Shown: positions 12,447-33,064 of the stretch, one piece after another
How positions within the stretch are numbered: position 1 is the first letter of the stretch
Layout: each line of letters begins with the position of its first letter
DNA from: Candidatus Nomurabacteria bacterium
Lineage (GTDB): Bacteria > Patescibacteriota > Minisyncoccia > Phycocordibacterales > UBA9973
Direction: 5' to 3'
Assembly: GCA_025361085.1 (NCBI GenBank)
Contig: JANYAX010000028.1
Span: 1 to 33,064 of the forward strand
Length of the DNA: 33,064 bases
Position numbers and translations under genes: made by a program
Notes under the pieces: model-generated
Told to the model about the DNA's origin: nothing
The model's database searches: none
The model's input: only the letters and a program-made list of their open reading frames with translations

Positions 12447-13469
12447 TTATTTTGTCTTTTGTAAAAATTCTTTTACTATTTTTTCTACCTCTTTTGCATT
12501 TTTGGTTTCCATGAGCTTCATACGGAGTTCTTTGGCTCCATCCCTGCCTTCGCAGGCAGGAAAACCATTCACATACGCCTTGTAATGCTTTTTCATAACT
12601 GCAAAATTTCTATGTTTACCTAAAAGTTTCTCAAATAATTTCGTATGTTCGAGCATAACTTTAAGACGTTTAGTTAAAAAATCTCGCCCTTCGCTCTTAC
12701 TCAGGACATTTTTGTTTTTATGTAAAGATGCAAACAAAAATGGATTACCAAATATACCACGGCCGATCATGATTCCATCGCAACCAGTTTCTTTCCACTT
12801 CCTCCTACCATCGTCAATGTCTACGACATCACCGTTTCCAATTATTTTAGTTGTGACTTTCATTTCATTTCGAATCTCTACTACCCTCTTTACATAATCC
12901 CACTTAGCAGGAACTTTCGACATTTCTTTGCGAGTTCGAGCATGAATAGTAAGCGCATCAATTTTTTGAGAAAGTAAAAATGGAATCCATTCTTCGAGCT
13001 GGCTTTTATTGTAACCGACGCGAGTTTTTACAGATATAGATATTTGTTTCCCGGAATCTCTTATACCATCTTTAACAGCCTCTATTATCTCTCCAGCTTT
13101 TTCCATACTCTTCATCATAGCAGCGCCAGCACCTTGACCCTCTACTGAACGATCTGGGCAACCCATATTGATATCGATACCATCAAAACCAAGCGAGGCA
13201 ACATATTTTGCCGCTTGGCGCATTTTCGTCGGGTTCGAAGAAAAAAGTTGCGCGACAATTGGTTTTTCTTTTTTAGAATAAATTAAATTATCTTTTAAAA
13301 TTTCTCTTCCTTTACTTGTGAGCCCGTCTGCTGAAACAAACTCTGTCCATAAAACATCTGGTTTACCATACTTTGTAATAATACGACGAAAGGCGGCGTC
13401 CGTGACATCGGCCATCGGCGCTAAGCAAAAAAAGGGCTTCGGTAATTTTTCCCAGAAATTTTTCATCAC
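12447..13469 (-). CDS. dus: tRNA-dihydrouridine synthase
   Basis: A 340-residue Dus flavoenzyme that reduces uridine to dihydrouridine in the tRNA D loop. It shows the TIM-barrel start FFCLAPMADVTDAAFR, the catalytic-cysteine motif DINMGCP (Cys104), KTRVGYN, LTIHARTR, GNGDV and GIMIGRGIFGNPF (FMN phosphate binding), and the C-terminal helical domain with MKKHYKAYVNGF. Residues 304-309 (PACEGR) come from an 18-bp palindrome inserted between GF and DGAKELR. The start overlaps the stop of the ftsQ-like gene (ATGA), showing translational coupling. Confidence 0.95.
   Translation of the reverse strand: MMKNFWEKLPKPFFCLAPMADVTDAAFRRIITKYGKPDVLWTEFVSADGLTSKGREILKDNLIYSKKEKPIVAQLFSSNPTKMRQAAKYVASLGFDGIDINMGCPDRSVEGQGAGAAMMKSMEKAGEIIEAVKDGIRDSGKQISISVKTRVGYNKSQLEEWIPFLLSQKIDALTIHARTRKEMSKVPAKWDYVKRVVEIRNEMKVTTKIIGNGDVVDIDDGRRKWKETGCDGIMIGRGIFGNPFLFASLHKNKNVLSKSEGRDFLTKRLKVMLEHTKLFEKLLGKHRNFAVMKKHYKAYVNGFPACEGRDGAKELRMKLMETKNAKEVEKIVKEFLQKTK
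12543..12560 (-). repeat. In-frame 18-bp palindrome, copy 2 (dus)
   Basis: On the coding strand CCTGCCTGCGAAGGCAGG, one change from the consensus. It is read CCT-GCC-TGC-GAA-GGC-AGG (PACEGR), a different phase from the other three copies but still six whole codons. Confidence 0.8.
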
Positions 13470-21487: not shown

Positions 21488-21571
21488 GCGTCGGTGGCAG
21501 AGTGGTCAATTGCATTTGACTGTAAATCAAACGCCCTTGCGGCTACGTAGGTTCGAATCCTACCCGGCGCA
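21488..21571 (+). tRNA. tRNA-Tyr(GTA)
   Basis: Cloverleaf with a long variable arm: acceptor GCGTCGG/CCGGCGC, anticodon stem TTTGA/TCAAA, loop CTGTAAA with anticodon GTA, T arm GTAGG/CCTAC with TTCGAAT, discriminator A. CCA is not encoded. The stop codon of the serine recombinase gene on the other strand lies in its T stem, which suggests an integration site. Confidence 0.95.
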
Positions 21572-23158
21572 CAACCTAGGACGAATTGGGTCAAAAGACT
21601 CAGTTCGTCCTTTTGATATAAGACTATCTTCTCGTTCCAACCGTTCTATTTCTGGCATAAGTTCTATTTCCCCTTCTTTGAGCTTTAAAAACCAAGAATG
21701 TAAGTCAATAAAGAGTTTTTTATCTTTTATTCTATGGTTCAAACCTAAGCTTGAAAAAATCTCTCTTTTTGTCTGAATATCACCATTTTCAAAAGCATCC
21801 CCCACACAGCACATAAAACTAACCACATCTTCTGTTAACTTTGTCCAATCTTTTATACGTCCCTCTGTTTCTAAAATTTTTATTTTATTTTTTTGTAACC
21901 CTTCCTCAATGTTTACTTTTTGTTTATTGTATTGATCTTTTGTTAATGTCCCATCAATTAAAAATTCCATAATGCGATCAAGCTTCTTTTGTAATTCAAG
22001 TATTTCTTTTTGCTGATTTTCGTAAATTTTTTGGTGAATAAGAGATTCATTTTTGTGCATTTCTGATAAAACTTCAAGGGCTAAATTATAAAACTTTTTA
22101 TTTATAGTTTTTTCCTTAAAAATTTTTAAAATTTTTTCTTCTAGATTCTCGGATGTTATTGGCTTCTCTTTGCAAGATATATACTTTTTTCTTTTTGTGC
22201 AATGATAATAGGTATGGTAATTGATAGTTCCATTTTTTAATATTTTGTGTTTTTTTGAGGCAGTAATTTGTGCTCCACAATTTTCACATGTCATAATACC
22301 AGTAAATGGAAATTCATGTTTTTGTGATCTTGGTCTACCTTTCTTACCCAAAAAAATCTGAGTTCTATCAAATTCATCCATTGTTATCATAGGAGTATGT
22401 TTACCTTGATATAATTGTCCTCCATACATGAAATTACCAGTGTAAAAAATATTAGTAAACATAATATACGCATAACTCTCAGAAATTGCTTTACCACCAA
22501 TTCTTTTTCTTTTTGGAGTATTTAAACCCCATTCATTAGTGGCCTTTCTTAACGTTTGTGGAATCGAATAATTTCCAGTGAGTAATAAGTCCCACATTTT
22601 ACGAACAATTAAAAATCTTTCTTCGTCTACAATAATTGTTTCGTTTCCTTTTTCATGAGTTTTTGAATTCAAATAGCCGATTGGTGGAATATTCGGAAAC
22701 CATCCCTTCTCGGCTTTTGATCTCATCCCTCTTTTTACATTTATAGATAAATCACGAATGTATTGACTAGACATTCCATTTTCAACAGACATAATTATTG
22801 CATTATCTTGTGGTAAATAATTCTTCTCTGGAGTTTTAATACAAAGTAATTTCTGTTTTTGTAAAAAATATTGAATGGCGCCACTATCAATTGCGTTACG
22901 AGATAATCTATCCATCTTCCAAACTAAAAGACCACTAATTTTACCTTGTTCAATTAGTTTTGAAAGTTTTATAAAGCCATCTCTCTTGTATGGCTCCTTA
23001 GCAGATTTTGCTTCAAATATAATTTCACTTATTTTTATACCTTCTCTTTTTGCTATAGCTTTCAGATTATTAATCTGATCATCAATAGACTGTATTTGCC
23101 TATCAGATGATTCCGTAGATTTCCTTGCATATATAGCCCATATTATATTTTTATCCAT
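21560..23158 (-). CDS. Large serine recombinase / integrase 1
   Basis: A 532-residue large serine recombinase. The catalytic domain has the nucleophile Ser14 in YARKSTES, then LVWKMDRLSRN and the helix E region SINVKRGMRSKAEKGWFP. The recombinase domain (IPPIGYLN, IFYTGNFMYGGQLYQGKH), a zinc ribbon (CENCGAQIT, then YHCTKRKKYISC), and a coiled coil (about residues 345-420) follow. Such enzymes integrate and excise mobile DNA at att sites. The last 15 or so codons cross the tRNA-Tyr terminator and the stop lies inside the tRNA, so the C-terminal tail was probably formed by integration. Upstream is a cluster of interlocked inverted repeats. Confidence 0.93.
   Translation of the reverse strand: MDKNIIWAIYARKSTESSDRQIQSIDDQINNLKAIAKREGIKISEIIFEAKSAKEPYKRDGFIKLSKLIEQGKISGLLVWKMDRLSRNAIDSGAIQYFLQKQKLLCIKTPEKNYLPQDNAIIMSVENGMSSQYIRDLSINVKRGMRSKAEKGWFPNIPPIGYLNSKTHEKGNETIIVDEERFLIVRKMWDLLLTGNYSIPQTLRKATNEWGLNTPKRKRIGGKAISESYAYIMFTNIFYTGNFMYGGQLYQGKHTPMITMDEFDRTQIFLGKKGRPRSQKHEFPFTGIMTCENCGAQITASKKHKILKNGTINYHTYYHCTKRKKYISCKEKPITSENLEEKILKIFKEKTINKKFYNLALEVLSEMHKNESLIHQKIYENQQKEILELQKKLDRIMEFLIDGTLTKDQYNKQKVNIEEGLQKNKIKILETEGRIKDWTKLTEDVVSFMCCVGDAFENGDIQTKREIFSSLGLNHRIKDKKLFIDLHSWFLKLKEGEIELMPEIERLEREDSLISKGRTESFDPIRPRLCAG
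21578..21614 (+). terminator. tRNA-Tyr terminator hairpin
   Basis: A 15-bp stem (21578-21592 with 21597-21611, two G-U pairs) with an AAAA loop and a T run, seven bases after tRNA-Tyr. It also codes for the last residues of the recombinase on the opposite strand. Confidence 0.8.
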
Positions 23159-23173
23159 ATATTTTTTGGTCCC

Positions 23174-23281
23174 AAAAAAGGGGCAACAGTTAAGACTTTA
23201 TAATCGCCAGACTACAAAATCACTATTACCCCTTTCTTGAATTCAAAAAAGATTAAAGTCTATTTTATTTTGTAGTCTGGC
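23174..23281. repeat. Three interlocked inverted repeats upstream of recombinase 1
   Basis: Three arms appear in order and then their partners in the same order: c 23176-23185 with c' 23227-23236 (AAAGGGGCAA, one mismatch), b 23194-23205 with b' 23251-23260 (GACTTTATAATC, two-base bulge), a 23206-23220 with a' 23267-23281 (GCCAGACTACAAAAT, perfect 15 bp). Only alternative or pseudoknotted folds can satisfy all three. It fills the gap 23159-23315, which has no gene. Candidate functions: autoregulatory leader, att site or recombinase binding region. Confidence 0.7.
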
Positions 23282-23315
23282 TAGTTGATTATAACACAAA
23301 AAGTTAAATGAGTAA

Positions 23316-25493
23316 CTATTTATTAAAAACTATCTCAATATTATGAGTTTCTGAATTTACCCCACCACCTTCAACACTATTTATTTCTTCTAGTTCAAAC
23401 TCTGCTTCTATTGGTATAACTACCATCTCTCGTTTATCGTCAACGCTTCTTTCTTGAACCAAAAGTCCAGATTGTTCAAGTTGGGGAAGTATTTGAATTC
23501 TAAGGCTTTGCATACTTAATGGTCGTCCATACAACTTAAAGTGCCGATTAAGAATTTCCTTTCTTGTTACAAATGTTTTCTTATCATCTGGAGATGAAAA
23601 ACCTCCATAAGTAGAGGCCGGTTCTTTCCATAAAGGAATTATAATTCTTGTGTAAATCTCAAATATATAAGGAGATAAACCATAATCTTGCCCATAAGAT
23701 ATTTTCTCCCACAAATTAAAAGCACTAAAGATATCTTCTTCTGTTGCAAAAATACATGATCCTTCTCTTTTTCTAAACCAAAGATTAAGCAAAGAAAATC
23801 CTTTAATAATACTAATTATCTTTTTAATGTCTCTTTGTTGCCTTGGTTTTAAACTTTTATTATCTTTTAAAAATAATTCTTCTATAAGTTGTTTGTTTTC
23901 TATTTTTATATTATCTATTTTTTCTTGCCTTATTCCCAAGATTCTTTTTTTTAAAAGATTTCTATCGTAATCATTATTTACAATATCCATAAACTTTTCA
24001 TGATCTGTTTCTTTGAATATTGACTGCTGAATTCCTTGATAAAGCTTATCGTGTTCAATTGATGGACTAAGAACTATAAATCTAGTACTTTCTTGTTCAT
24101 CTATTTTGAAATTAGCACTACAAAAATAAACTGTTGGATAACCAATAATAGTTATATTTTTTGTTCTATTTCCACCAGATTGGTTTTTGTCAGTTATTTT
24201 AGCATGAGACTCTTTTGAGTCATGAGATAATAAAGATCTTAATCTAGAAAGTAAACTGGGGTCAGGCATATCAGTAAATATTAAAATCTTCCTTGAAAGA
24301 TCTACTGTCATCTCATTCTTATCTTTATTGTAACGTCCTTGCTCATGGAAAAATGCAGTTGGACTACAGTTTGCAAGTATAATAGAGTCTTCTTTTGGAA
24401 ATAAATCTACAACAGATAAAGGAATGTGACTCTTACCTGTCGAACTTGGTGCACTAAAAAATACATTAGTTTGAGATTCATAAGTATAAGTCGTGAGCAT
24501 TGTTAAAAATGTAATTGCTTTATTTTCATCATCTTTTTTTATTGTTAGATCAAGTATTTTACAAATGTCTTCTATTTTAATTTCTTCAAATATTGATGCG
24601 TCAATTTCTTCTGGGTATTTTTTTGCATATTTTGTAAAAAGATCATTTATTGGTAATCCAAGTCGAACTATATAATCTCCAAGATCTCCCTTATCACCAA
24701 CTTCATTTGGAAGTGTAATAATAAATAGATTAATACATCCATTTTTATATAGCATTGAAGCCATCTTTTGTTCTCCAATTCTCCCAGCTTCATCATTATC
24801 ATAACAAATATAATAAGTAACTTCTGGTTTAAAATATTCACCCCAGCTATCTTTTGCTGTATTAGCCCCGTGTGTATTAGTTATACATGGAATATTATTA
24901 GATCTCATAAGTAATGTATCCATTTCCCCTTCAGAGATTAATAAATTATTCTCAGCCATTAATAAAGTTTCCCAATCATAAATTTGAGCTGTTATTTTTT
25001 CTTTATCAGTACTTTTAGGCCAAGTCATTTTATTTTTCCCAACTTCTGGATCTTGACGAAGTTTAAACAATAAATAATTCCCATTAATATCTTTTATAGG
25101 AATTGTTATCCACCAATTATGATAAAAAAAACCATACCCGATTTTTTCTTTATCAATTATTTCATTTGTTATACCTCTTTTGTTTAAATATTCTCTAATT
25201 CTTTCAGGTAAATTTTTATTACAATTTTCAACCACTGAAGGTGTTAATGTTCTTATGTTTCTTTTATTTTCTTTTTCTACTAAATCTCCAAGATGTTTTC
25301 TGAGAGTAGTCATATTTCCTGTTGCATTACATTTTTTACAATGATACTGACCTGTATCCATACTAAAATACAAATGTGTCTCGTTTCCCTTACTGTTGTC
25401 ATCACAACCAGAAAACAAACATTTTGTAACCAATTCTCCATTAACAGTTCGAAAGACTATACCTTTCTCACTCAAATATTTTTCAATATTCAT
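23316..25493 (-). CDS. Mobile-element primase-helicase (CHC2-like zinc finger, TOPRIM, AAA-type ATPase, winged helix)
   Basis: A 725-residue replication protein. Residues 25-55 form a CHC2-like zinc finger (C25, C30, C52, C55). A TOPRIM domain has E188-G-E190 and D232-N-D234, the catalytic pattern of DnaG-type primases and of plasmid and phage primase-helicases. An ATPase domain has Walker A APSSTGKS (348-355) and Walker B ILIFTD (403-408), with SANFKIDEQESTRFIVLSP further on. The C-terminus is a probable winged helix (VTRKEILNRHFKLYGRPL). The layout suggests it primes and unwinds the element's own DNA. Rigid family assignment was not possible. Confidence 0.85.
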   Translation of the reverse strand: MNIEKYLSEKGIVFRTVNGELVTKCLFSGCDDNSKGNETHLYFSMDTGQYHCKKCNATGNMTTLRKHLGDLVEKENKRNIRTLTPSVVENCNKNLPERIREYLNKRGITNEIIDKEKIGYGFFYHNWWITIPIKDINGNYLLFKLRQDPEVGKNKMTWPKSTDKEKITAQIYDWETLLMAENNLLISEGEMDTLLMRSNNIPCITNTHGANTAKDSWGEYFKPEVTYYICYDNDEAGRIGEQKMASMLYKNGCINLFIITLPNEVGDKGDLGDYIVRLGLPINDLFTKYAKKYPEEIDASIFEEIKIEDICKILDLTIKKDDENKAITFLTMLTTYTYESQTNVFFSAPSSTGKSHIPLSVVDLFPKEDSIILANCSPTAFFHEQGRYNKDKNEMTVDLSRKILIFTDMPDPSLLSRLRSLLSHDSKESHAKITDKNQSGGNRTKNITIIGYPTVYFCSANFKIDEQESTRFIVLSPSIEHDKLYQGIQQSIFKETDHEKFMDIVNNDYDRNLLKKRILGIRQEKIDNIKIENKQLIEELFLKDNKSLKPRQQRDIKKIISIIKGFSLLNLWFRKREGSCIFATEEDIFSAFNLWEKISYGQDYGLSPYIFEIYTRIIIPLWKEPASTYGGFSSPDDKKTFVTRKEILNRHFKLYGRPLSMQSLRIQILPQLEQSGLLVQERSVDDKREMVVIPIEAEFELEEINSVEGGGVNSETHNIEIVFNK

Positions 25494-25515
25494 AATATAT
25501 ATTTAATAAAATACC

Positions 25516-25692
25516 TCAATTATCTTTATTAGCAGATGATTGATTTATTTTGTTATTTTGCTGTTGTACAGCGTTAATAAGGCAAACAAGTGCCGTAATT
25601 TCATCACGGGCTTTAGATTTATCAATTAACTCATTATACTCTTCGAGATATATTGATATATATTTTTCTAAATATTTTTCACTTATTTGCAT
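25516..25692 (-). CDS. Hypothetical small helical protein (58 aa; up to 83 aa)
   Basis: An unrecognised small protein. From the ATG at 25692 it begins MQISEKYLEKYISIYLEEYNEL and is predicted all-helical, with a Gln/Asn/Ser-rich tail. A GTG at 25767 would give 83 residues, but that start sits in the stem of a hairpin (25753-25767) and the extension looks less protein-like. It lies 22 bases upstream of the primase-helicase gene and may be its operon partner. Confidence 0.5.
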   Translation of the reverse strand: MQISEKYLEKYISIYLEEYNELIDKSKARDEITALVCLINAVQQQNNKINQSSANKDN

Positions 25693-25752
25693 AAATTTAA
25701 TAAATGGCACTTTTAGAGACTTGATCTGCGCCAACACATCAAGTCCCCGAAG

Positions 25753-25791
25753 GTGCCCATTTGGCACAGAATCATAGAAAAAACTATGATT
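25753..25791. repeat. Two adjacent hairpins between small gene and tandem repeats
   Basis: GTGCC/GGCAC (25753-25757 and 25763-25767) and AATCATAG/CTATGATT (25770-25777 and 25784-25791, loop A6). The second has the look of a weak terminator or a protein-binding palindrome. Confidence 0.4.
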
Positions 25792-25840
25792 GTTTTAAAT
25801 ATATGCAATAAAAAATTCCACACACTAAAAAGCTATGGAA

Positions 25841-25880
25841 TCATACTATTTCATACTATTTCATACTATTTCAGACTATT
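25841..25880. repeat. 10-bp tandem repeat, four units
   Basis: TCATACTATT occurs three times without gap (25841-25870) and a fourth unit TCAGACTATT follows (25871-25880). The 10-base period places every unit on the same face of the helix. It overlaps the 3' end of the 266-aa gene and is close to the primase gene, so an origin, iteron-like or partition site is possible. Confidence 0.75.
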
Positions 25881-26676
25881 TCGGTTTTTTAACAAAATGC
25901 TTTAATTGCTTTATTTCCTCCATTAATTTTTTGTAGTTTATTTCTTCGTTTTCTAATTGACTTGCAAGTACATTGTTTCTAAAAAAAAGAGCATTTTTTG
26001 AAATATTTGTAAAAAAAATCTTTCTTAACATTTTTTTAAAACCAAGATCTTCTATCATGCCCAAAATTCTACGTGTTAACTTGTAATTTAGTTCTTGGTT
26101 TGTTTTCATAATATCTTTTTCAATAAAAGATTTTGTTAATTTTGTTTCTGGATTTCTTAAAACAACTTCAAAAAAATTTAATGCCTGTCCGTCATAGCGT
26201 GGATTAGATAAAATATATTTATCATTTAAGATAATAACGTCTCTCATTTTGTATTTTTCTAAACTAACAAAATATTTTGGTGACACTGATAATTCTATTA
26301 AAAAATTCTTAATTTTGGAAGGAATAAATTCACATTTGTAATTTATAAAAAATACTTCAGTATTAGAATATGGAATCTCATATTTACCATCATTACTTAT
26401 GCCACCTTCTTCTATTACTTCTTTTAACCCATTACTTAAGAGATGATACTCCTTTAAATATTTCTCTTTTTTTAGAAATCTAAATACAAATTTTATAATT
26501 TCATTGTCGTTATTTTCAAAATCTTCTGTATAAAAGGTAATAGAAATTGTTGTTAATTTATTTTCCAAAACATTGTCTGGTATATTTTTATAGATTAACT
26601 TTAAAACTCTTATTATTGACTCCTCAGAAGGTAAGTTTTCCCCTTTTATTTTAATATTTTGTTTTATTTGGCGCAT
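25876..26676 (-). CDS. Hypothetical element protein with possible winged-helix C-terminus (266 aa)
   Basis: I do not recognise this protein. It is soluble, Lys- and Ile-rich, with an N-terminal region (residues 1-120) of mixed helix and strand and a C-terminal region (about 150-240) rich in regular helices (ALNFFEVVLRNP, KLTRRILGMIEDLGFKKMLRKIFF), resembling a DNA-binding helix set followed by a basic stretch and a terminal coiled coil. Its place beside the primase gene and 10-bp tandem repeats would suit a replication initiator or regulator, but that is inference. It diverges from the structured RNA and cargo operon at 26771 onwards. Confidence 0.65.
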   Translation of the reverse strand: MRQIKQNIKIKGENLPSEESIIRVLKLIYKNIPDNVLENKLTTISITFYTEDFENNDNEIIKFVFRFLKKEKYLKEYHLLSNGLKEVIEEGGISNDGKYEIPYSNTEVFFINYKCEFIPSKIKNFLIELSVSPKYFVSLEKYKMRDVIILNDKYILSNPRYDGQALNFFEVVLRNPETKLTKSFIEKDIMKTNQELNYKLTRRILGMIEDLGFKKMLRKIFFTNISKNALFFRNNVLASQLENEEINYKKLMEEIKQLKHFVKKPK

Positions 26677-26770
26677 ATTGCTAGCATACCTAAAAAGAGG
26701 TATTATTTCAATACAACTTAATAAGAGTAGCCTAAACCTTTATTTTATAAAGGTATGGTTAATAAACAGT

Positions 26771-26870
26771 CCTGACAGACATAAAGAACCCATCATATGG
26801 GGTTGTCTGTCAGGCCATGCAGGAAACTGCATGAGAGATCTCGGTCTCTACCTATGTGGTGGGCTTTTTG
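26771..26870 (+). ncRNA. Uncharacterised multi-hairpin RNA upstream of the cargo genes
   Basis: Four consecutive elements: an 11-bp perfect stem CCTGACAGACA/TGTCTGTCAGG (26771-26781 and 26804-26814) with an inner CCCAT/ATGGG stem; a 7-bp hairpin CATGCAG/CTGCATG closed by a GNRA loop GAAA (26816-26833); a short hairpin AGAGA/TCTCT (26834-26849); and a weak stem CTACC/GGTGG followed by a T run (26848-26869). The gap 26677-26911 has no gene. It resembles a riboswitch or attenuator leader, or a stand-alone small RNA; I could not match it to a known class. Confidence 0.6.
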
Positions 26871-26911
26871 TTTTTCTATTACATAGATAATTTATTAAAT
26901 AAATTATCTTT

Positions 26912-27967
26912 ATGAATAAAATAAAACTATTTGGAATAATTATTATAAGTTTGATTGTAATATTTCCATCAGTAATAAAAGCTACTTCTGGTGCTTGCTC
27001 TTCTCATGGTGGAGTTAATTGTTCAGCAGGAATGGGCAACTTGGGAGCAAATGCTATTTGTAATGATGGCTTCGAAAGTTCTACCAGCTACTACGATACA
27101 AAAGAGTGTACTGGTAATTTTTCTACATGTAGTGAACCAATAAAAGGATCTTGTTCTGATAATTCAGATATTGTGCGTCATTGTGGAACTCCTAGTCAAT
27201 ATACATATGAAATGTATGATATTTGCAGGAATGATTGTCAGAATCAAATAAATCAATATCAATCACAGTTACAAACATATAATAATTGTATTTCTAATAC
27301 AAACCAAAATTACACTTCAAATACCACAACAATAGATAAGGACACATATGTAAATCAAAAAATGCAAGAATACTGTGTTGGAAAATATGGCAATAGTGTG
27401 AAATATAATTCGACAAAAATTGTATGCGAATGTATCGATGGATATTTTATGAATTCAAATATGCAATGTATGCTCAAAGAACAAGTATATCAAGAGCGTT
27501 GTGTTGAGCGTGATGGTTTAAATTCTAAATACGACCCAACGACAAATAACTGTAAATGTAATGATGGCTATGTTATTGGAAATACCGAAGATAGTAAATG
27601 CGAAACATTAGATCAATTTTGCACAGATCATTACGGATTGAATGTGCATGTCGAGGATAATAAATGTACATGCAATAGTGGCTATACTTTAAATATAAGT
27701 AATTCTATATGTGAAATACAAAAAACCCCAATCAAACAAACAAAATCTGACAACAAAAAGACAGCAAAAGAAAAAGACACAGTTGATAGTCCAAAGTTAA
27801 ATGACATCTTAGTAAAAACTCCTACAACTACCATAACTAATTATCCATACGAATCGGTGTTTAACACTCCCACAACAACTACTCCAGTTTCCATAAATGT
27901 TTCACCCCAAAAACATAAAAATGTATTTCGCAAAATGTTTGATTTTATTAAAAATATATTTAATTAA
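26912..27967 (+). CDS. Secreted cysteine-rich protein with EGF-like repeats
   Basis: A 351-residue exported protein. The signal peptide is residues 1-24 (FGIIIISLIVIFPSVIKA). Next comes a CSSHGGVNCSAG segment with paired cysteines, an N/Q-rich middle, then three similar cysteine repeats, each of the form C..(Y/G)G.....C.C..GY........C (for example CVERDGLNSKYDPTTNNC then KCNDGYV), reminiscent of EGF-like modules. The tail is Thr/Pro-rich and ends in a basic, hydrophobic helix (FRKMFDFIKNIFN). It is probably a cell-surface or secreted factor; the ligand is unknown. It opens a plus-strand run of small genes. Confidence 0.75.
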   Translation: MNKIKLFGIIIISLIVIFPSVIKATSGACSSHGGVNCSAGMGNLGANAICNDGFESSTSYYDTKECTGNFSTCSEPIKGSCSDNSDIVRHCGTPSQYTYEMYDICRNDCQNQINQYQSQLQTYNNCISNTNQNYTSNTTTIDKDTYVNQKMQEYCVGKYGNSVKYNSTKIVCECIDGYFMNSNMQCMLKEQVYQERCVERDGLNSKYDPTTNNCKCNDGYVIGNTEDSKCETLDQFCTDHYGLNVHVEDNKCTCNSGYTLNISNSICEIQKTPIKQTKSDNKKTAKEKDTVDSPKLNDILVKTPTTTITNYPYESVFNTPTTTTPVSINVSPQKHKNVFRKMFDFIKNIFN

Positions 27968-27968
27968 T

Positions 27969-28220
27969 ATGAAAAAACTAATCATGGAGATATTAAAAAA
28001 ATTAAATGAATGGAAATTTATTTTACTAGTAATATTTATTGTCGTTGGATGTTTTTATTGGTATGAACTAAGACCATCTATTATTTATTCAAGATGTAAT
28101 AATGAAGCCATAAAAGAAACAGATGAAATATTGGGGTCATATGAATATTCTGGTGCGGGTAGAGATTTATATAATATAAAATATTCAGTGTGTTTAAGAT
28201 CTAAAGGAGTTAATAACTAA
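27969..28220 (+). CDS. Small membrane-anchored protein (83 aa)
   Basis: Starts one base after the stop of the Cys-rich gene. One hydrophobic segment (residues 17-31, FILLVIFIVVGCFYW) after a basic N-terminus, then a short outer domain with two cysteines (SRCNNEAIK and YSVCLRSKG). Family unknown. The tight spacing implies co-transcription with the secreted protein. Confidence 0.6.
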   Translation: MKKLIMEILKKLNEWKFILLVIFIVVGCFYWYELRPSIIYSRCNNEAIKETDEILGSYEYSGAGRDLYNIKYSVCLRSKGVNN

Positions 28221-28288
28221 ATTAAAGAAAGAATCTACATAATTAATTATGGTATATTATTAACAATGAACAAAAAATAATCAATATT

Positions 28289-28984
28289 ATGAACACATCA
28301 GAAAAAATACAAACTAGTTTGTCCGTACTACTTACTACCTTGGCTTTCCCCATAATGTTTTTAAATCTAGCTGGTGGAATTATTTCAGGTATTTGGTTAA
28401 TTATTATAGGTAAATTAAGTCTTGTTATTTTCTCCCTTCTTCTTACATTTATTGCTACGAAGGTTCTCGGCCTTATACTTGCACCCACATTACTTTTAAT
28501 GCACCCAGTTGCTAAGGCTCTAGAGAATAAAAAATATACAAAAGTTTATATATTATCAGCATTAGCTAATTTTTGGGATTATTTAGTAATGACAGTTTGG
28601 TGTGTAGGAAGTTTTATTTATATTGTTAATTATACAAATAGTGGTTCTATATGGCCCTATCTACTTTTAGGTTATTGTGTCGCTACAGTACCATGGACTT
28701 ATATAGCTTCCCATGAAGATTCAAATGAAGTTAACGCATCAACAATAGGGACTTTTTTTGTTTGTCTTGGAACCATAGCAATGATGATGATTGCGATTTT
28801 TTCTAAAACCCCAAATCTTGGTTCAATGTTAATAGTATTCATCATTGCAATGCTTGTTGCATGGATAATGCAAGTGATTTTATTAATATCAAATATAAAG
28901 TCTACTGAAGTACGAAACGATAATAACATAGAAGAAAGTGAGGGTGCACCAGAAGATAGTTATTCATTATTTTCTGATAATTAA
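28289..28984 (+). CDS. Hypothetical polytopic membrane protein (231 aa)
   Basis: About six hydrophobic segments: residues 10-30, 33-70 (two), 90-112, 120-140, 152-170 and 176-198, followed by an acidic tail (NNIEESEGAPEDSYS). Glycine and tryptophan are frequent in the helices. No family recognised. It may form a surface or transport module with the neighbouring secreted and anchored proteins of the element. Confidence 0.65.
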   Translation: MNTSEKIQTSLSVLLTTLAFPIMFLNLAGGIISGIWLIIIGKLSLVIFSLLLTFIATKVLGLILAPTLLLMHPVAKALENKKYTKVYILSALANFWDYLVMTVWCVGSFIYIVNYTNSGSIWPYLLLGYCVATVPWTYIASHEDSNEVNASTIGTFFVCLGTIAMMMIAIFSKTPNLGSMLIVFIIAMLVAWIMQVILLISNIKSTEVRNDNNIEESEGAPEDSYSLFSDN

Positions 28985-29069
28985 AATAAACTATGTACTG
29001 AACCTATTCTTTACATAGAAATCAAAATATTATCAGCACAACCAATTTATCAAAGAATAATAAACGATT

Positions 29070-29294
29070 ATGAAAATAAAATTCAATCAGCCAACGAAAA
29101 TAAAAGCGATACAGTTTCTAGGAAGTCTGTTTCAGGGGAAGAAAAAGGAAGTACAAAAGGAGGAAAAGAAAATAATCAACTTAATAGATATCAAGAAGTT
29201 TCTACAGGGCAGGAAATGGGAGGAACTAACAGAGAAGGAACAAATAGAAATCTCCCAGAAAATAGCCGACCTAATATCGAAGGAAAGTGACTAA
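29070..29294 (+). CDS. Hypothetical small basic protein (74 aa)
   Basis: A Lys/Glu/Ile-rich helical protein with a C-terminal part (KKFLQGRKWEELTEKEQIEI) that reads like a genuine amphipathic domain. No family recognised. Another frame is also open here but has no start codon. Part of the plus-strand small-gene run. Confidence 0.5.
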   Translation: MKIKFNQPTKIKAIQFLGSLFQGKKKEVQKEEKKIINLIDIKKFLQGRKWEELTEKEQIEISQKIADLISKESD

Positions 29295-29310
29295 ATTATT
29301 AATATAAACT

Positions 29311-29445
29311 ATGAAAATAATTATTTTTTTAATAATTTGGGTAGGGTTAATGCTTATCTTCTCAGATAAGGTTATTCCTAATATTACTAGTGATAATGAT
29401 AAATCTTGTTACCAAAATGGACACCCACTTTGGACAGATTGTTAA
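29311..29445 (+). CDS. Putative small membrane or secreted peptide (44 aa)
   Basis: A short frame from the ATG at 29311: a hydrophobic start (KIIIFLIIWVGLMLIFS) and a polar tail with two cysteines ending LWTDC. It starts 16 bases after the previous gene and stops four bases before the next start, which supports it as a real gene; a frame reading from 29390 across it is less likely. Confidence 0.5.
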   Translation: MKIIIFLIIWVGLMLIFSDKVIPNITSDNDKSCYQNGHPLWTDC

Positions 29446-29449
29446 ATAT

Positions 29450-30076
29450 ATGAGCGAAAATAAATCAGAAAAATTAATTTGTAAAGACTTTAAACCAATT
29501 ATAGAAAAAGCTATAAAAGAACTAAAAGATGGTGAAAATCGTTTTGTTATTTCTGATTCTTTAGTAAAGTATCCTTTTATTAGTGAATTTCCTAATCCAG
29601 ATTTTTCTGAAAGAGTATCTTCTGATTATGGAGTACCATCAAACAATAAAGAAATTGAAGCAGATTATTTTGAAGAAGTAAGATTGTTAAAACAATTAAT
29701 AAAAGAAGCAGATATTCAAATAAATCTTTCAAATTGGCAAATATCAGGAAATAAAAGTGGAGAAGATATGTGGAAAGAATTAAATATTCAAGCATACTCT
29801 ATTCAGTTGTGGGATTGGTATGCAATTCCATTACGATATAAAAATAATGCCATATATATTATATGGCCACCACAAGATGTATATCAAGGAACACCAATTA
29901 TACATAGCTATCCTATTGATTTTTTTCTAAAAATTCTTTCTGGAGTTTTAGAAAAACAGACAGAAGATCATATAAAAACATTAAAAATGTTAAATCTTTG
30001 GAAAAATTTTGGAATGATAGTTCTTACAATTTTTATAATTTTTGTTTTAACTAAATTATTAATAATAATGAATTAA
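29450..30076 (+). CDS. Hypothetical C-terminally anchored protein (208 aa)
   Basis: Begins MSENKSEKLICKD at the ATG at 29450, preceded by TAAATAT like other starts in the element; an in-frame ATG at 29390 overlaps the 44-aa gene. The bulk is soluble with several Trp and Tyr (LSNWQISG, LWDWYAIPLRYKNNAIYIIWPP). One hydrophobic helix near the C-terminus (FGMIVLTIFIIFVLTKLLII) would anchor it in the membrane. No family recognised. Confidence 0.6.
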   Translation: MSENKSEKLICKDFKPIIEKAIKELKDGENRFVISDSLVKYPFISEFPNPDFSERVSSDYGVPSNNKEIEADYFEEVRLLKQLIKEADIQINLSNWQISGNKSGEDMWKELNIQAYSIQLWDWYAIPLRYKNNAIYIIWPPQDVYQGTPIIHSYPIDFFLKILSGVLEKQTEDHIKTLKMLNLWKNFGMIVLTIFIIFVLTKLLIIMN

Positions 30077-30093
30077 AGAAATAAAAGATATAT

Positions 30094-30252
30094 ATGAAAA
30101 AGAAAACTACAACAATGTCACAGGAAGAAGAGAAACTACGCTACCAAGAGGCGGTGAGAATGGTTCAATTTCTAGTGAAAATAGGTCAGATAAAGAAAAT
30201 GCCATCAGAAGCGGAAATGAAGGCGTATTGGGAGAAACTAAAGAAGTACTAA
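30094..30252 (+). CDS. Small paralogous protein A (52 aa)
   Basis: Starts at AAGATATATATG and encodes MKKKTTTMSQEEEKLRYQEAV followed by VQFLVKIGQIKKMPSEAEMKAYWEK. The second half is almost identical to protein B nine bases downstream, and the first halves match in length with conservative changes (Y17, A20-V21, L27-V28). It is probably a short amphipathic helix pair; function unknown. An overlapping frame is open through both copies but has no start codon upstream. Confidence 0.55.
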   Translation: MKKKTTTMSQEEEKLRYQEAVRMVQFLVKIGQIKKMPSEAEMKAYWEKLKKY

Positions 30253-30261
30253 AAGATATAT

Positions 30262-30417
30262 ATGCAAAAGAAAACTACAACAAACAAACAGGTGCCAGAC
30301 ATAATGAATTACCAGTTCGCAGTGAATCTAGTAAAGCACTTAGTGAAAATAGGTCAGATAAAGAAAATGCCATCAGAGGAGGAAATGAAGGCGTATTGGG
30401 AGAAGATTAATAAATAA
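30262..30417 (+). CDS. Small paralogous protein B (51 aa)
   Basis: Tandem paralogue of protein A, from the same leader AAGATATATATG. It shares KKTTT at the start and KIGQIKKMPSEEEMKAYWEK at the end. Differences concentrate in residues 8-27, where hydrophobic positions are kept (NYQFAVNLVKHLV against RYQEAVRMVQFLV). Confidence 0.55.
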   Translation: MQKKTTTNKQVPDIMNYQFAVNLVKHLVKIGQIKKMPSEEEMKAYWEKINK

Positions 30418-30495
30418 AATTATCTATACTTTTATTTATTAAATTATCTTTTGATTAATTGATTTAATCAATCATTTTATGATGCAAATAAGTGA

Positions 30496-30501
30496 TATAA
30501 T
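30496..30501 (+). promoter_or_regulatory. -10 box of the 117-aa gene
   Basis: TATAAT six bases before the ATG at 30508, predicting a leaderless mRNA. The preceding gap (30418-30495) is AT-rich with short inverted repeats and no gene. Confidence 0.5.
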
Positions 30502-30507
30502 TTAAGT

Positions 30508-30861
30508 ATGAATAATAAACGTGGTGGTAAAAGAATAGGAGCAGGAAGAAAGAAAGGATTAGCCTCGATTAGTGCTGAAAAGGCTAGAGAATACACCGTA
30601 AAACGTATAGCTGAGGAACTAGAACCTCTTTTAACGGGTCAAATTGAGCTTGCAAAGGGTTTATATACGGAAATTGAAGATGAACAAGAAGGTATCAAGA
30701 AGGTATACCAGAAAGCGCCAGATTACCGTGTAGGGGCATTCCTTTTAAATCAACTAATAGGTAAGGCAAAAGAGACTTCTGATATCAATATTGAAGGTAG
30801 TTTTTCGTTGAGTAAATTAGCTCAAATGAGGGAAGAGTCAAGAAAACAAGAATCTACTTAA
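30508..30861 (+). CDS. Small-terminase-like or DNA-binding protein with AT-hook-like N-terminus (117 aa)
   Basis: The start NNKRGGKRIGAGRKKG is the basic Gly/Arg motif often found at the N-terminus of phage small terminase-like and related DNA-binding proteins. A helical part follows (AEKAREYTVKRIAEELEPLL), then KAPDYRVGAFLLNQLIGKAKET and a Ser/Glu tail. The middle fits a short coiled helical oligomerisation region. No large terminase is present, so a packaging role is unproven; a regulator or partition-like role is equally possible. Confidence 0.6.
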   Translation: MNNKRGGKRIGAGRKKGLASISAEKAREYTVKRIAEELEPLLTGQIELAKGLYTEIEDEQEGIKKVYQKAPDYRVGAFLLNQLIGKAKETSDINIEGSFSLSKLAQMREESRKQEST

Positions 30862-30965
30862 ACTAATATAGTATTTAAGGGTGTGGGGTTAAATCATTAA
30901 TTTTACAGATCCAATTTGATAAATTTGGTATGTAAATAGGTACTAAAGAATTTATAAGTTCCGTT

Positions 30966-32522
30966 CTAACATCTTCTAGTACGGCGCACCAAGATAGTAC
31001 AAATAGGTTTAGCGGGGGTTAATGTATGGGTGTGCCGTAGGCACGCCCACGCTGTTTGTGTTTGGTTTGCAACGGAATTTGAAAAATCGGGCGCGCTAGC
31101 GCGCACTAATCTTTCGCCGAGGAGGAGGTTCGAGCCAAAGACTTTTTTGGCAGCAACCTTTTTATTCAAAAGGTTGCAATCCAGTGCAATTTTTTCCATA
31201 TTTTGAGCCTCTTTTATCCATTCTCGCATCGGTTCGAGCCAATGTTTTTGTTTTTGTTGATTAAGAGATATTTCTTCCTCGAGCGACTTCTTTTCAGATA
31301 ATAAAATCGCTTTTTGAGTTCTGTAAGTTTCTTTATCAATATCTTGTTCTAAATATCCTTCTAGAAGTCGCTCAAGCTTTGCAGAAATATCTTTTATACT
31401 TTTTTGATTCTTTTCAACAAAAACAGAAACAGATTGGGCGGATTTATTTTCATCTTCATTGAGTCTCGTGTTTAAATAATCCGCCCAATCTTGTGGCATA
31501 GAAACTTTTTTGAGAAGTGATGAAATTTGCTCGTCCAAGACCTCTTGGCGAATGCAGGATTCGGGACATTTCATATCTCGTCTTTTCTTGGAACAATGAT
31601 AATAAGTATAGTAATGTTCTTTACCACTAATTTGTCTTTTAATCCTGTATTCGCCAGTTATCATCATTCCACAAGTAGCACAACTTAGGAGCCCGCAAAA
31701 TACTTGTGGTTCATTTTTATGAATCAGTCTTGGACGACCTCTCTCTTTCATCACTTCTTGAACTCGATCAAAAAGTTTCTTATCCACAATTGGTTCAAAC
31801 TTTCCTTCATATATTTCTCCAGCGTAGCGGAAATGTCCGTAATAGAATGGATTGGAGAGGATAAAAGTGGCTCGTGTTCTGTGTATTTTCTTTCCGTGTT
31901 TTGTCAAAAGATTATGTTTCGCCAAAAACATACCAATAGTATCAAGCGTTTGATTCCCTTGTGCATACATCTCAAACGCTTGGCGAACAACAGGCGCGGA
32001 CTTGGTATCTATTACAATCGTTTTCGTTCGACTATCATTTATATATCCTACAGGTGAAAGTCCTGGGTATTCTCCGCGCCTAACTTTTTGGCGTAAACCT
32101 CTTTTGGTATTTTCGGAAAGAGAATCCACATAATATTTACTTTGTCCGAAAGCCATATTGAGCATAAATTTACCCTGTGAAGTAGAATCACACCAAAATG
32201 TTGGGAATTTTAGGCTCGCAAGTTTCCCAATGTCGAGGAGATAAATAATCTTACCGCCATCAATACTATTTCTTGCAAGACGATCCGGATGCCAAGAGAG
32301 AACAGAATCTGCATCGCCATTTTCTATACACTTCATCATCTCATTGAAAATAGGTCTGCCTGGAATTTTTGCAGATTGTTTTTCAATGAACTCTTTGGCG
32401 ATGTAGAGATTTTCTCTCTTGGCATAGTCTCGTAATTCTTGCAATTGTGCCTCAATACTAAGCACCTGCTTATCCTCGACATCTGTGGACTTGCGAGCAT
32501 ACAAAAAGAATTTTTGTGACAT
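30966..32522 (-). CDS. Large serine recombinase / integrase 2
   Basis: A 518-residue large serine recombinase: nucleophile Ser12 in YARKSTDV, WHPDRLARNSIDGG, SENTKRGLRQKVRRGEYPG, the recombinase domain (SPVGYIND, NPFYYGHFRYAGEIYEGKF), a zinc ribbon (CATCGMMIT, then YHCSKKRRDMKC) and a coiled coil (about 345-420). The last 50 or so residues (from LLLGERLV) are encoded by a 147-bp sequence present as an inverted copy upstream of the gene, so the C-terminal tail is repeat-derived. It is only distantly related to recombinase 1. Interlocked inverted repeats precede the start. Confidence 0.93.
   Translation of the reverse strand: MSQKFFLYARKSTDVEDKQVLSIEAQLQELRDYAKRENLYIAKEFIEKQSAKIPGRPIFNEMMKCIENGDADSVLSWHPDRLARNSIDGGKIIYLLDIGKLASLKFPTFWCDSTSQGKFMLNMAFGQSKYYVDSLSENTKRGLRQKVRRGEYPGLSPVGYINDSRTKTIVIDTKSAPVVRQAFEMYAQGNQTLDTIGMFLAKHNLLTKHGKKIHRTRATFILSNPFYYGHFRYAGEIYEGKFEPIVDKKLFDRVQEVMKERGRPRLIHKNEPQVFCGLLSCATCGMMITGEYRIKRQISGKEHYYTYYHCSKKRRDMKCPESCIRQEVLDEQISSLLKKVSMPQDWADYLNTRLNEDENKSAQSVSVFVEKNQKSIKDISAKLERLLEGYLEQDIDKETYRTQKAILLSEKKSLEEEISLNQQKQKHWLEPMREWIKEAQNMEKIALDCNLLNKKVAAKKVFGSNLLLGERLVRASAPDFSNSVANQTQTAWACLRHTHTLTPAKPICTILVRRTRRC
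30987..31133. repeat. 147-bp inverted repeat, left copy
   Basis: Reverse complement of 32701-32847 with 145 of 147 bases identical. It contains two internal palindromes, GCGCGCTAGCGCGC and a GGGTGTGCC/GGCACGCCC hairpin. It encodes the C-terminal tail of recombinase 2. Confidence 0.93.
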
Positions 32523-32532
32523 ATATTTTAAA

Positions 32533-32629
32533 AGCAGAAATGGATATTCTAGTGTTGAAACCTTAACGCAAAGTTAAGATAGCTAGAATATCCATTTCTG
32601 CTAACTTTGCTAATAATTTGGTTTCAACA
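32533..32629. repeat. Interlocked inverted repeats upstream of recombinase 2
   Basis: Perfect 20-bp arms AGCAGAAATGGATATTCTAG (32533-32552) and 32583-32602; perfect 10-bp arms TGTTGAAACC (32553-32562) and 32620-32629; 9-bp arms GCAAAGTTA (32568-32576) and 32602-32610; plus a local hairpin CTTAAC/GTTAAG (32562-32578). The 20-bp pair crosses the other pairs, so the folds are mutually exclusive or pseudoknotted. In the transcript direction the 20-bp hairpin ends in TTTT just before the start codon. Confidence 0.75.
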
Positions 32630-32700
32630 ATTCAAGTATATCACTTTTAAAATAATCACAAAATTCTTTTTGTATAAATTAGTAAAAATTGCATTGGATT

Positions 32701-32847
32701 TCGAACCTCCTCCTCGGCGAAAGATTAGTGCGCGCTAGCGCGCCGGATTTTTCAAATTCCGTTGCAAACCAAACACAAACAGCGTGGGCGTGCCTACGGC
32801 ACGCCCATACATTAACCCCCGCTAAACCTATTTGTACTATCTTGGTG
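32701..32847. repeat. 147-bp inverted repeat, right copy
   Basis: Inverted copy of 30987-31133 with two mismatches. The hairpin GGGCGTGCC/GGCACGCCC is perfect here. Its plus strand contains a frame matching the recombinase tail, without the rest of a gene. Confidence 0.93.
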
Positions 32848-33064
32848 TGGTTATATGACTCCGTTCGAACCTATTTCCAAAAGAATGAAAGCTAATCTTA
32901 CGCTCGGCTTCTGTCTTTTCTTTAATATTCCTACTACGCTCTACTAATGTATCAATTCTCTAAACTGCGGACTTCGGTTTTGCGAAACTAATTTGCGGGA
33001 AGGGATTCGCAAAACCTCGACTTATTTCCATTTTGCCTTGAATTCTCTTTTGCCGTGCAGGAAG
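32848..33064. other. Gene-free right edge with a palindrome
   Basis: No supported gene. On the minus strand a short frame starts at 33031 (MEISRGFANPFPQ) but meets stops. An 11-bp inverted repeat GGTTTTGCGAA/TTCGCAAAACC lies at 32976-32986 and 33006-33016. The stretch looks like a dispersed intergenic repeat or the decayed edge of another element. Confidence 0.4.

Follow-up and report, generated by a model that had tools for sequence, protein, structure and literature searches.

The window, by which we mean the whole 33,064-nucleotide stretch of DNA that was analysed, is an entire contig (C4) of a genome of 771 kb in 38 contigs. Near its right end lies the gene for a serine recombinase, which we call recombinase 2, set between two inverted repeats, and to the left of this unit lie a second element with a recombinase of its own and a tRNA-Tyr gene. 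The features on which the analysis draws are the following:

21488-21572, plus strand: tRNA-Tyr(gta), the putative original target (ARAGORN/Rfam); 13 nt separate the end of its T-loop GGTTCGA from the CAC core
21573-30989: element 1, with recombinase 1 (21560-23158, minus strand), delimited by sequence comparison
30966-32522, minus strand: recombinase 2, a large serine recombinase/integrase of 518 aa (Pfam Resolvase, Recombinase, Zn_ribbon_recom)
30987-31133, plus strand: IR1, the tRNA-side arm, with an attachment core (CACC) at its start, two GC palindromes and the C-terminal residues of recombinase 2
31134-31177: a double hairpin of 44 nt at the 3' coding end of recombinase 2, absent from the other arm by sequence comparison
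32529-32631, minus strand: structured leader of the recombinase gene, with three helices in the order A1-B1-C1-B2-A2-C2, preceded by a TATACT -10 box
32701-32847, minus strand: IR1', the internal arm
32820-32885, minus strand: predicted intact internal attP, inverted, in which ATAGGTTCGAACGGAGTCATATAACCA is joined to CACCAAGATAG (sequence comparison)
32848-33064: IR2', truncated where the contig stops; the matching outer arm, IR2, is at 13679-13882 in contig C3, at that contig's end and adjoining clpC

A sequence-only reading of this DNA had described two inverted arms differing at two positions, GC-rich palindromes in both, a recombinase gene that runs about 50 residues into the left arm, and a base composition indicative of a separate origin. 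Each of these observations was borne out. The arms are 147 nt long, lie 1567 nt apart and agree at 145 of 147 positions (98.6%), and no other inverted repeat in the window comes near them in length (the runner-up measures 28-33 nt). Both palindromes, GCGCGCTAGCGCGC and TGGGCGTGCCGTAGGCACGCCCA, are present in each arm, the second with a single T/C change in one of them. IR1 holds about 49 codons of recombinase 2, and the GC content of the unit is 0.38-0.39, as against 0.25-0.30 in the block to its left. We also found that the inverted match resumes beyond the double hairpin (AATCCAGTGCAATTTTT, paired with AAAAATTGCATTGGATT at 32684-32700). The same reading had proposed a search for the 147-bp sequence elsewhere in the genome, where dispersal would have pointed to a simple insertion. 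It is not dispersed: apart from the two window arms, only diverged copies in contig C2 were found, and there, too, they surround a recombinase.

Recombinase 2 has the domains and the catalytic serine and arginine residues of a large serine recombinase/integrase. The invariants of its family, as judged from 14 relatives, include Y8, R10, S12, D80, R81 and R84, and its profile matches the structures of A118 integrase (4kis/6dnw) and TP901-1 (3bvp) in the PDB. In all members of the closest group, the recombinase frame runs across IR1 without a stop, with stops in most of the other frames, which suggests that the IR1-coded tail is probably translated. The very last residues are an antisense reading of the target tRNA, and vary with the insertion site.

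The pairing of the leader is kept despite complete sequence change across 25 relatives, each of which scores above its 20 shuffles. The leader has no match in Rfam and is absent from about a dozen relatives. It is an optional module, and may form a pseudoknot or a two-state switch.

Relatives and complete elements

A scan of bacterial genomes returned 52 loci, and every title that names a lineage names one of the Patescibacteria, including Nomura-, Zambryski-, Taylor-, Yanofsky-, Moran-, Magasanik- and Sungbacteria, Saccharibacteria, Woese- and Gottesmanbacteria, and others. The window's genome holds at least four copies of the element. Three further recombinases of this genome (in C2, C13 and C18) lie between inverted repeats of 99-147 bp. 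Repeats surround the recombinase gene in 34 of the 48 relatives examined, which rules out a chance arrangement; in most of the rest, the contig is cut beside the gene. IR1 was not detectable in three relatives with a usable upstream flank (L114, L115 and L128).

We found 11 complete elements, and these show that the recombinase unit does not stand alone. In each, a second repeat pair (IR2) comes directly after the IR1 pair and brackets other genes, so that the elements read tRNA, IR1-recombinase-IR1', IR2'-cargo-IR2, displaced flank. IR1 and IR2 overlap by a few bases where they meet. The att core, a short sequence of 3-6 nt, is repeated at both ends of the element, as in a genomic island. When the outer ends, which lie kilobases apart, were joined over this core, the resulting 120 nt matched the internal IR1'/IR2' junction at 94-100% identity in eight of nine elements; the ninth, L094, has mosaic IR1 arms that are 74% identical. 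Because the joined outer ends constitute an attP and match the internal junction, the latter should be another complete attP, inverted relative to the first. We conclude that the recombinase 2 unit is very probably one half of a mobile element that is integrated at the 3' end of a tRNA gene, encodes a large serine integrase and carries two inverted attP. The element layout also accounts for the odd C-termini of these recombinases, which are antisense readings of tRNAs, and for the frequent assembly breaks at recombinase genes in these genomes.

The cargo varies between elements. In L104 and L129, it includes a reverse transcriptase with bAvd and candidate targets, i.e. diversity-generating retroelements. 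L137 carries threonyl-tRNA synthetase-like genes and dehydrogenases, L100 a NUDIX protein, a methyltransferase and a glycosyltransferase, and L109 a nucleotidyltransferase resembling aminoglycoside adenylyltransferases. Genes for replication, for conjugation or transfer, and of phage type were not found among the cargo products checked. L100 also has a group I intron (12959-13191) near a tRNA cluster.

The sequence-only reading had seen the unit as one that recombination between its arms would invert, with a possible swap of the gene's tail. Put as a rival explanation, this is a self-inverting, phase-variable unit, whose recombinase would turn its gene over by acting at the 147-bp repeats. A recombinase gene flanked by inverted repeats is what this would predict, and in L097 and L102 the recombinase does lie opposite to the tRNA. 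However, both of these contigs end at an arm, where orientation is ambiguous in a short-read assembly, and in 43 of the 48 relatives the recombinase is antisense to the adjacent tRNA 3' end, which lends no support to frequent inversion. A swapped tail would be nearly unchanged, given that the arms are near-identical, and only the last residues vary, with the insertion site. The arm edges, moreover, are tRNA att cores, the arms run on into IR2, and recombination of attP with attP is not normal for serine integrases. What stands of the idea is a recombinase between inverted repeats; what falls is the free-standing invertible unit, since the arms are halves of longer repeats whose outer edges are att cores. 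We regard self-inversion as quite improbable.

A similarly unlikely, if slightly better, alternative is that this is an ordinary tRNA-targeting element in which the second att copy is the remnant of a nested insertion (tandem accretion) rather than a maintained duplication. Accretion can be seen at the window site itself, where element 1 sits between tRNA-Tyr and the recombinase 2 unit, and certain arms, those of L094 and the outer one in C3, combine sequence from two element types. Yet the layout with two inverted repeats is shared by 11 elements from both Paceibacteria and Microgenomates, whose cargoes are independent. Across 15 elements, furthermore, arm identity averages 97.9% within an element versus 69.5% between elements, so the arms are kept alike within each element, which argues for maintenance.

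Because many contigs end in arms, we also considered whether the repeats could be false inverted duplications generated by assembly at contig ends. This is hardly credible: the repeats come from dozens of separate assemblies, the two arms are often non-identical (89-99%), the arm keeps the recombinase frame open, and complete elements lie inside contigs of up to 236 kb.

tRNA targets and empty sites

Among the relatives, the element was found at the 3' ends of tRNA genes of about 14 isotypes, with the tRNAs left intact according to ARAGORN; in 43 of the 48, the arm downstream of the recombinase starts at such a 3' end, the tRNA being encoded on the opposite strand. In the tRNA, about 13 nt lie between the end of the motif GGTTCGA, or a variant of it, and the core, versus about 17 nt in attP; in the internal attP of the window, likewise, the T-loop-like GGTTCGA lies 17 nt from the core, versus 13 nt in the tRNA. 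At the one comparable half-site, attP always has the longer distance: the excess is 4 bp in 14 cases out of 16, and 5 bp in the remaining two. Serine integrases have been found to bind a motif in both attP and attB with a shift of 5 bp (ZD motif; PMC3783163), and the offset of 4-5 bp observed here comes close to that rule. From these comparisons, the integrase most likely reads the T-loop of the tRNA. As GGTTCGA is common to nearly all tRNAs, its probable recognition would explain the use of so many of them.

Empty sites were found in relatives, as is expected of a tRNA-integrated genomic island. In G000:C13, a 4.1-kb element parts tRNA-Ser from tRNA-Val, and the same two tRNAs lie 25 nt apart in G010. 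The joined flanks of the element match G010 continuously (86%), as well as about five other relatives across the junction. A corresponding search for G043:C7 found no relative spanning the site.

These targets also bear on whether the unit, about 1.9 kb long and bounded by inverted repeats, could be a transposon with terminal inverted repeats and a serine transposase. Although its outline would fit, the boundaries lie at tRNA 3' ends, copies at non-tRNA sites were not seen, and the unit makes up just one half of the element, so that its outer end is not the element's end. IS607-family serine transposons, in addition, are without terminal inverted repeats (PMC6188088). We consider this explanation very improbable.

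The tRNA-Tyr locus of the window

The element of recombinase 2 is split over two contigs in the window's genome, and its cargo is missing. On the window side, it is preceded by element 1, which is bounded by an 8-bp direct repeat, CGGCGCAC, at 21565-21572 and 30982-30989. We infer that element 1 arrived later, by insertion into the same tRNA-Tyr end, and so parted tRNA-Tyr from the recombinase 2 element. The 9.4 kb of element 1 code, in addition to the serine recombinase, for a protein that contains Toprim and for a secreted, EGF-like protein rich in cysteines.

The sequence of IR2' also occurs at the end of contig C3, where it stops at the identical inner point and is followed by clpC and nifS. 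The gene order topA-relA-parB-tRNA-Tyr-clpC-nifS is conserved in seven of seven relatives. Together with the far IR2 arm beside clpC, this order establishes that C4 and C3 belong to opposite sides of a single occupied tRNA-Tyr locus. At the C3 junction, GACAC is followed directly by AAATGAAAA; the empty tRNA-Tyr of a relative reads GACGCACAAATGAAAA. The outer arm in C3 differs from the internal arm over its outermost ~60 nt, which is another sign of arm exchange between elements. A 98-aa gene beside the far arm in C3 was tried as a marker of the locus, but it is not conserved, and clpC was used instead. In L260 (G001) and L266 (G011), tRNA-Tyr is reversed between parB and clpC relative to five other relatives.

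Several further features were observed in the window. Two adjacent repeats at 30076-30417, 72-91% similar, encode paralogous short ORFs of ~51 aa. A 53-nt segment is repeated at 2375-2427 and 2449-2501 and overlaps the 5' region of a tRNA-Lys; it is possibly an old att remnant. LOOT RNA (RF03000) occurs at 26729-26849 (plus strand) and in L112 (160-284). Of 24 genomes of the genus, 16 have it, often close to serine recombinases of the recombinase 1 type, and it may belong to mobile elements. As a candidate part of the inverted repeats it was rejected, since the window copy sits in element 1 and the L112 copy in the cargo.

Proposed circle and comparison with known systems

We propose that the free form of the element is a circle, in which the recombinase and cargo regions would be parted by two inverted copies of one repeat (IR2-IR1, roughly 150-470 bp), each copy carrying an attP at its IR2/IR1 junction. 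The integrase, in catalysing integration, would join one attP with the 3' end of a tRNA gene, at any of the many tRNAs made usable by recognition of the T-loop GGTTCGA. The copy so used would split, leaving IR1 beside the tRNA and IR2 at the far end, and the other would stay whole and inverted inside the element. The recombinase gene would then extend across IR1 and onto the antisense strand of the tRNA, from which it would take its tail. In searches for the element outside chromosomes, viral contigs gave no match in the recombinase 2 scan and only distant relatives in a profile scan, no circle was seen, and a plasmid search returned no close relative.

The spare attP may serve, at a guess, to capture chromosomal DNA between tRNA genes or to bring about amplification of the 2-micron kind. 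We hold it possible, though rather doubtful, that both inverted attP are functional by design, with the internal one active after integration, such that the element could recombine with further tRNAs, undergo inversion or amplification as a circle, and acquire the chromosomal genes that lie between tRNAs as its cargo. Were both functional, this would be a new class of integrative element, a tRNA-hopping gene-capture system of the Patescibacteria, which have tiny genomes and few described systems for moving genes, and in several classes of which the element is present. The paired inverted attP in any case open up a question for experiment that does not arise with ordinary integrative elements. 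An integrase that reads the universal T-loop, if this is true, would be a broadly targeting integration tool. Patescibacteria have been reported to carry many genomic islands, in an account that does not mention recombinases, integrases or tRNA (PMC12455944). In searches of the open-access literature, we found no published description of an element such as this one.

Among known systems, the large serine integrases of the A118/LI, TP901-1 and phiC31 type share with recombinase 2 the domain order, a sequence that matches the structures of A118 and TP901-1, and the motif shift of 4-5 bp between attP and attB; the element described here differs in using the 3' ends of many different tRNAs and in having two inverted attP. 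The tRNA-targeting islands of the Islander/TIGER class likewise insert at a tRNA 3' end, leave the tRNA intact, displace a copy of the core and have empty sites. In contrast to these islands, the serine recombinase studied here is not bound to one tRNA, there is an internal inverted att copy, and the cargo products checked include no transfer or phage genes.

A counterpart of the circle is the yeast 2-micron plasmid (Flp/FRT), in which two unique regions lie between site-bearing inverted repeats and one of them encodes the recombinase. The circle proposed here has this same plan, with inverted repeats that hold the recombinase sites between two unique regions, but it would differ in having a serine rather than a tyrosine recombinase, an integrase attP as its site, and integration into the chromosome. 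Invertible segments of the Hin/Gin kind, whose small invertases act on two like sites, similarly have a recombinase gene near inverted sites, whereas the sites of recombinase 2 are explained by tRNA integration and one orientation is dominant. The element is of a known type, i.e. tRNA-integrated with a serine integrase, with a new trait in its paired inverted attP.
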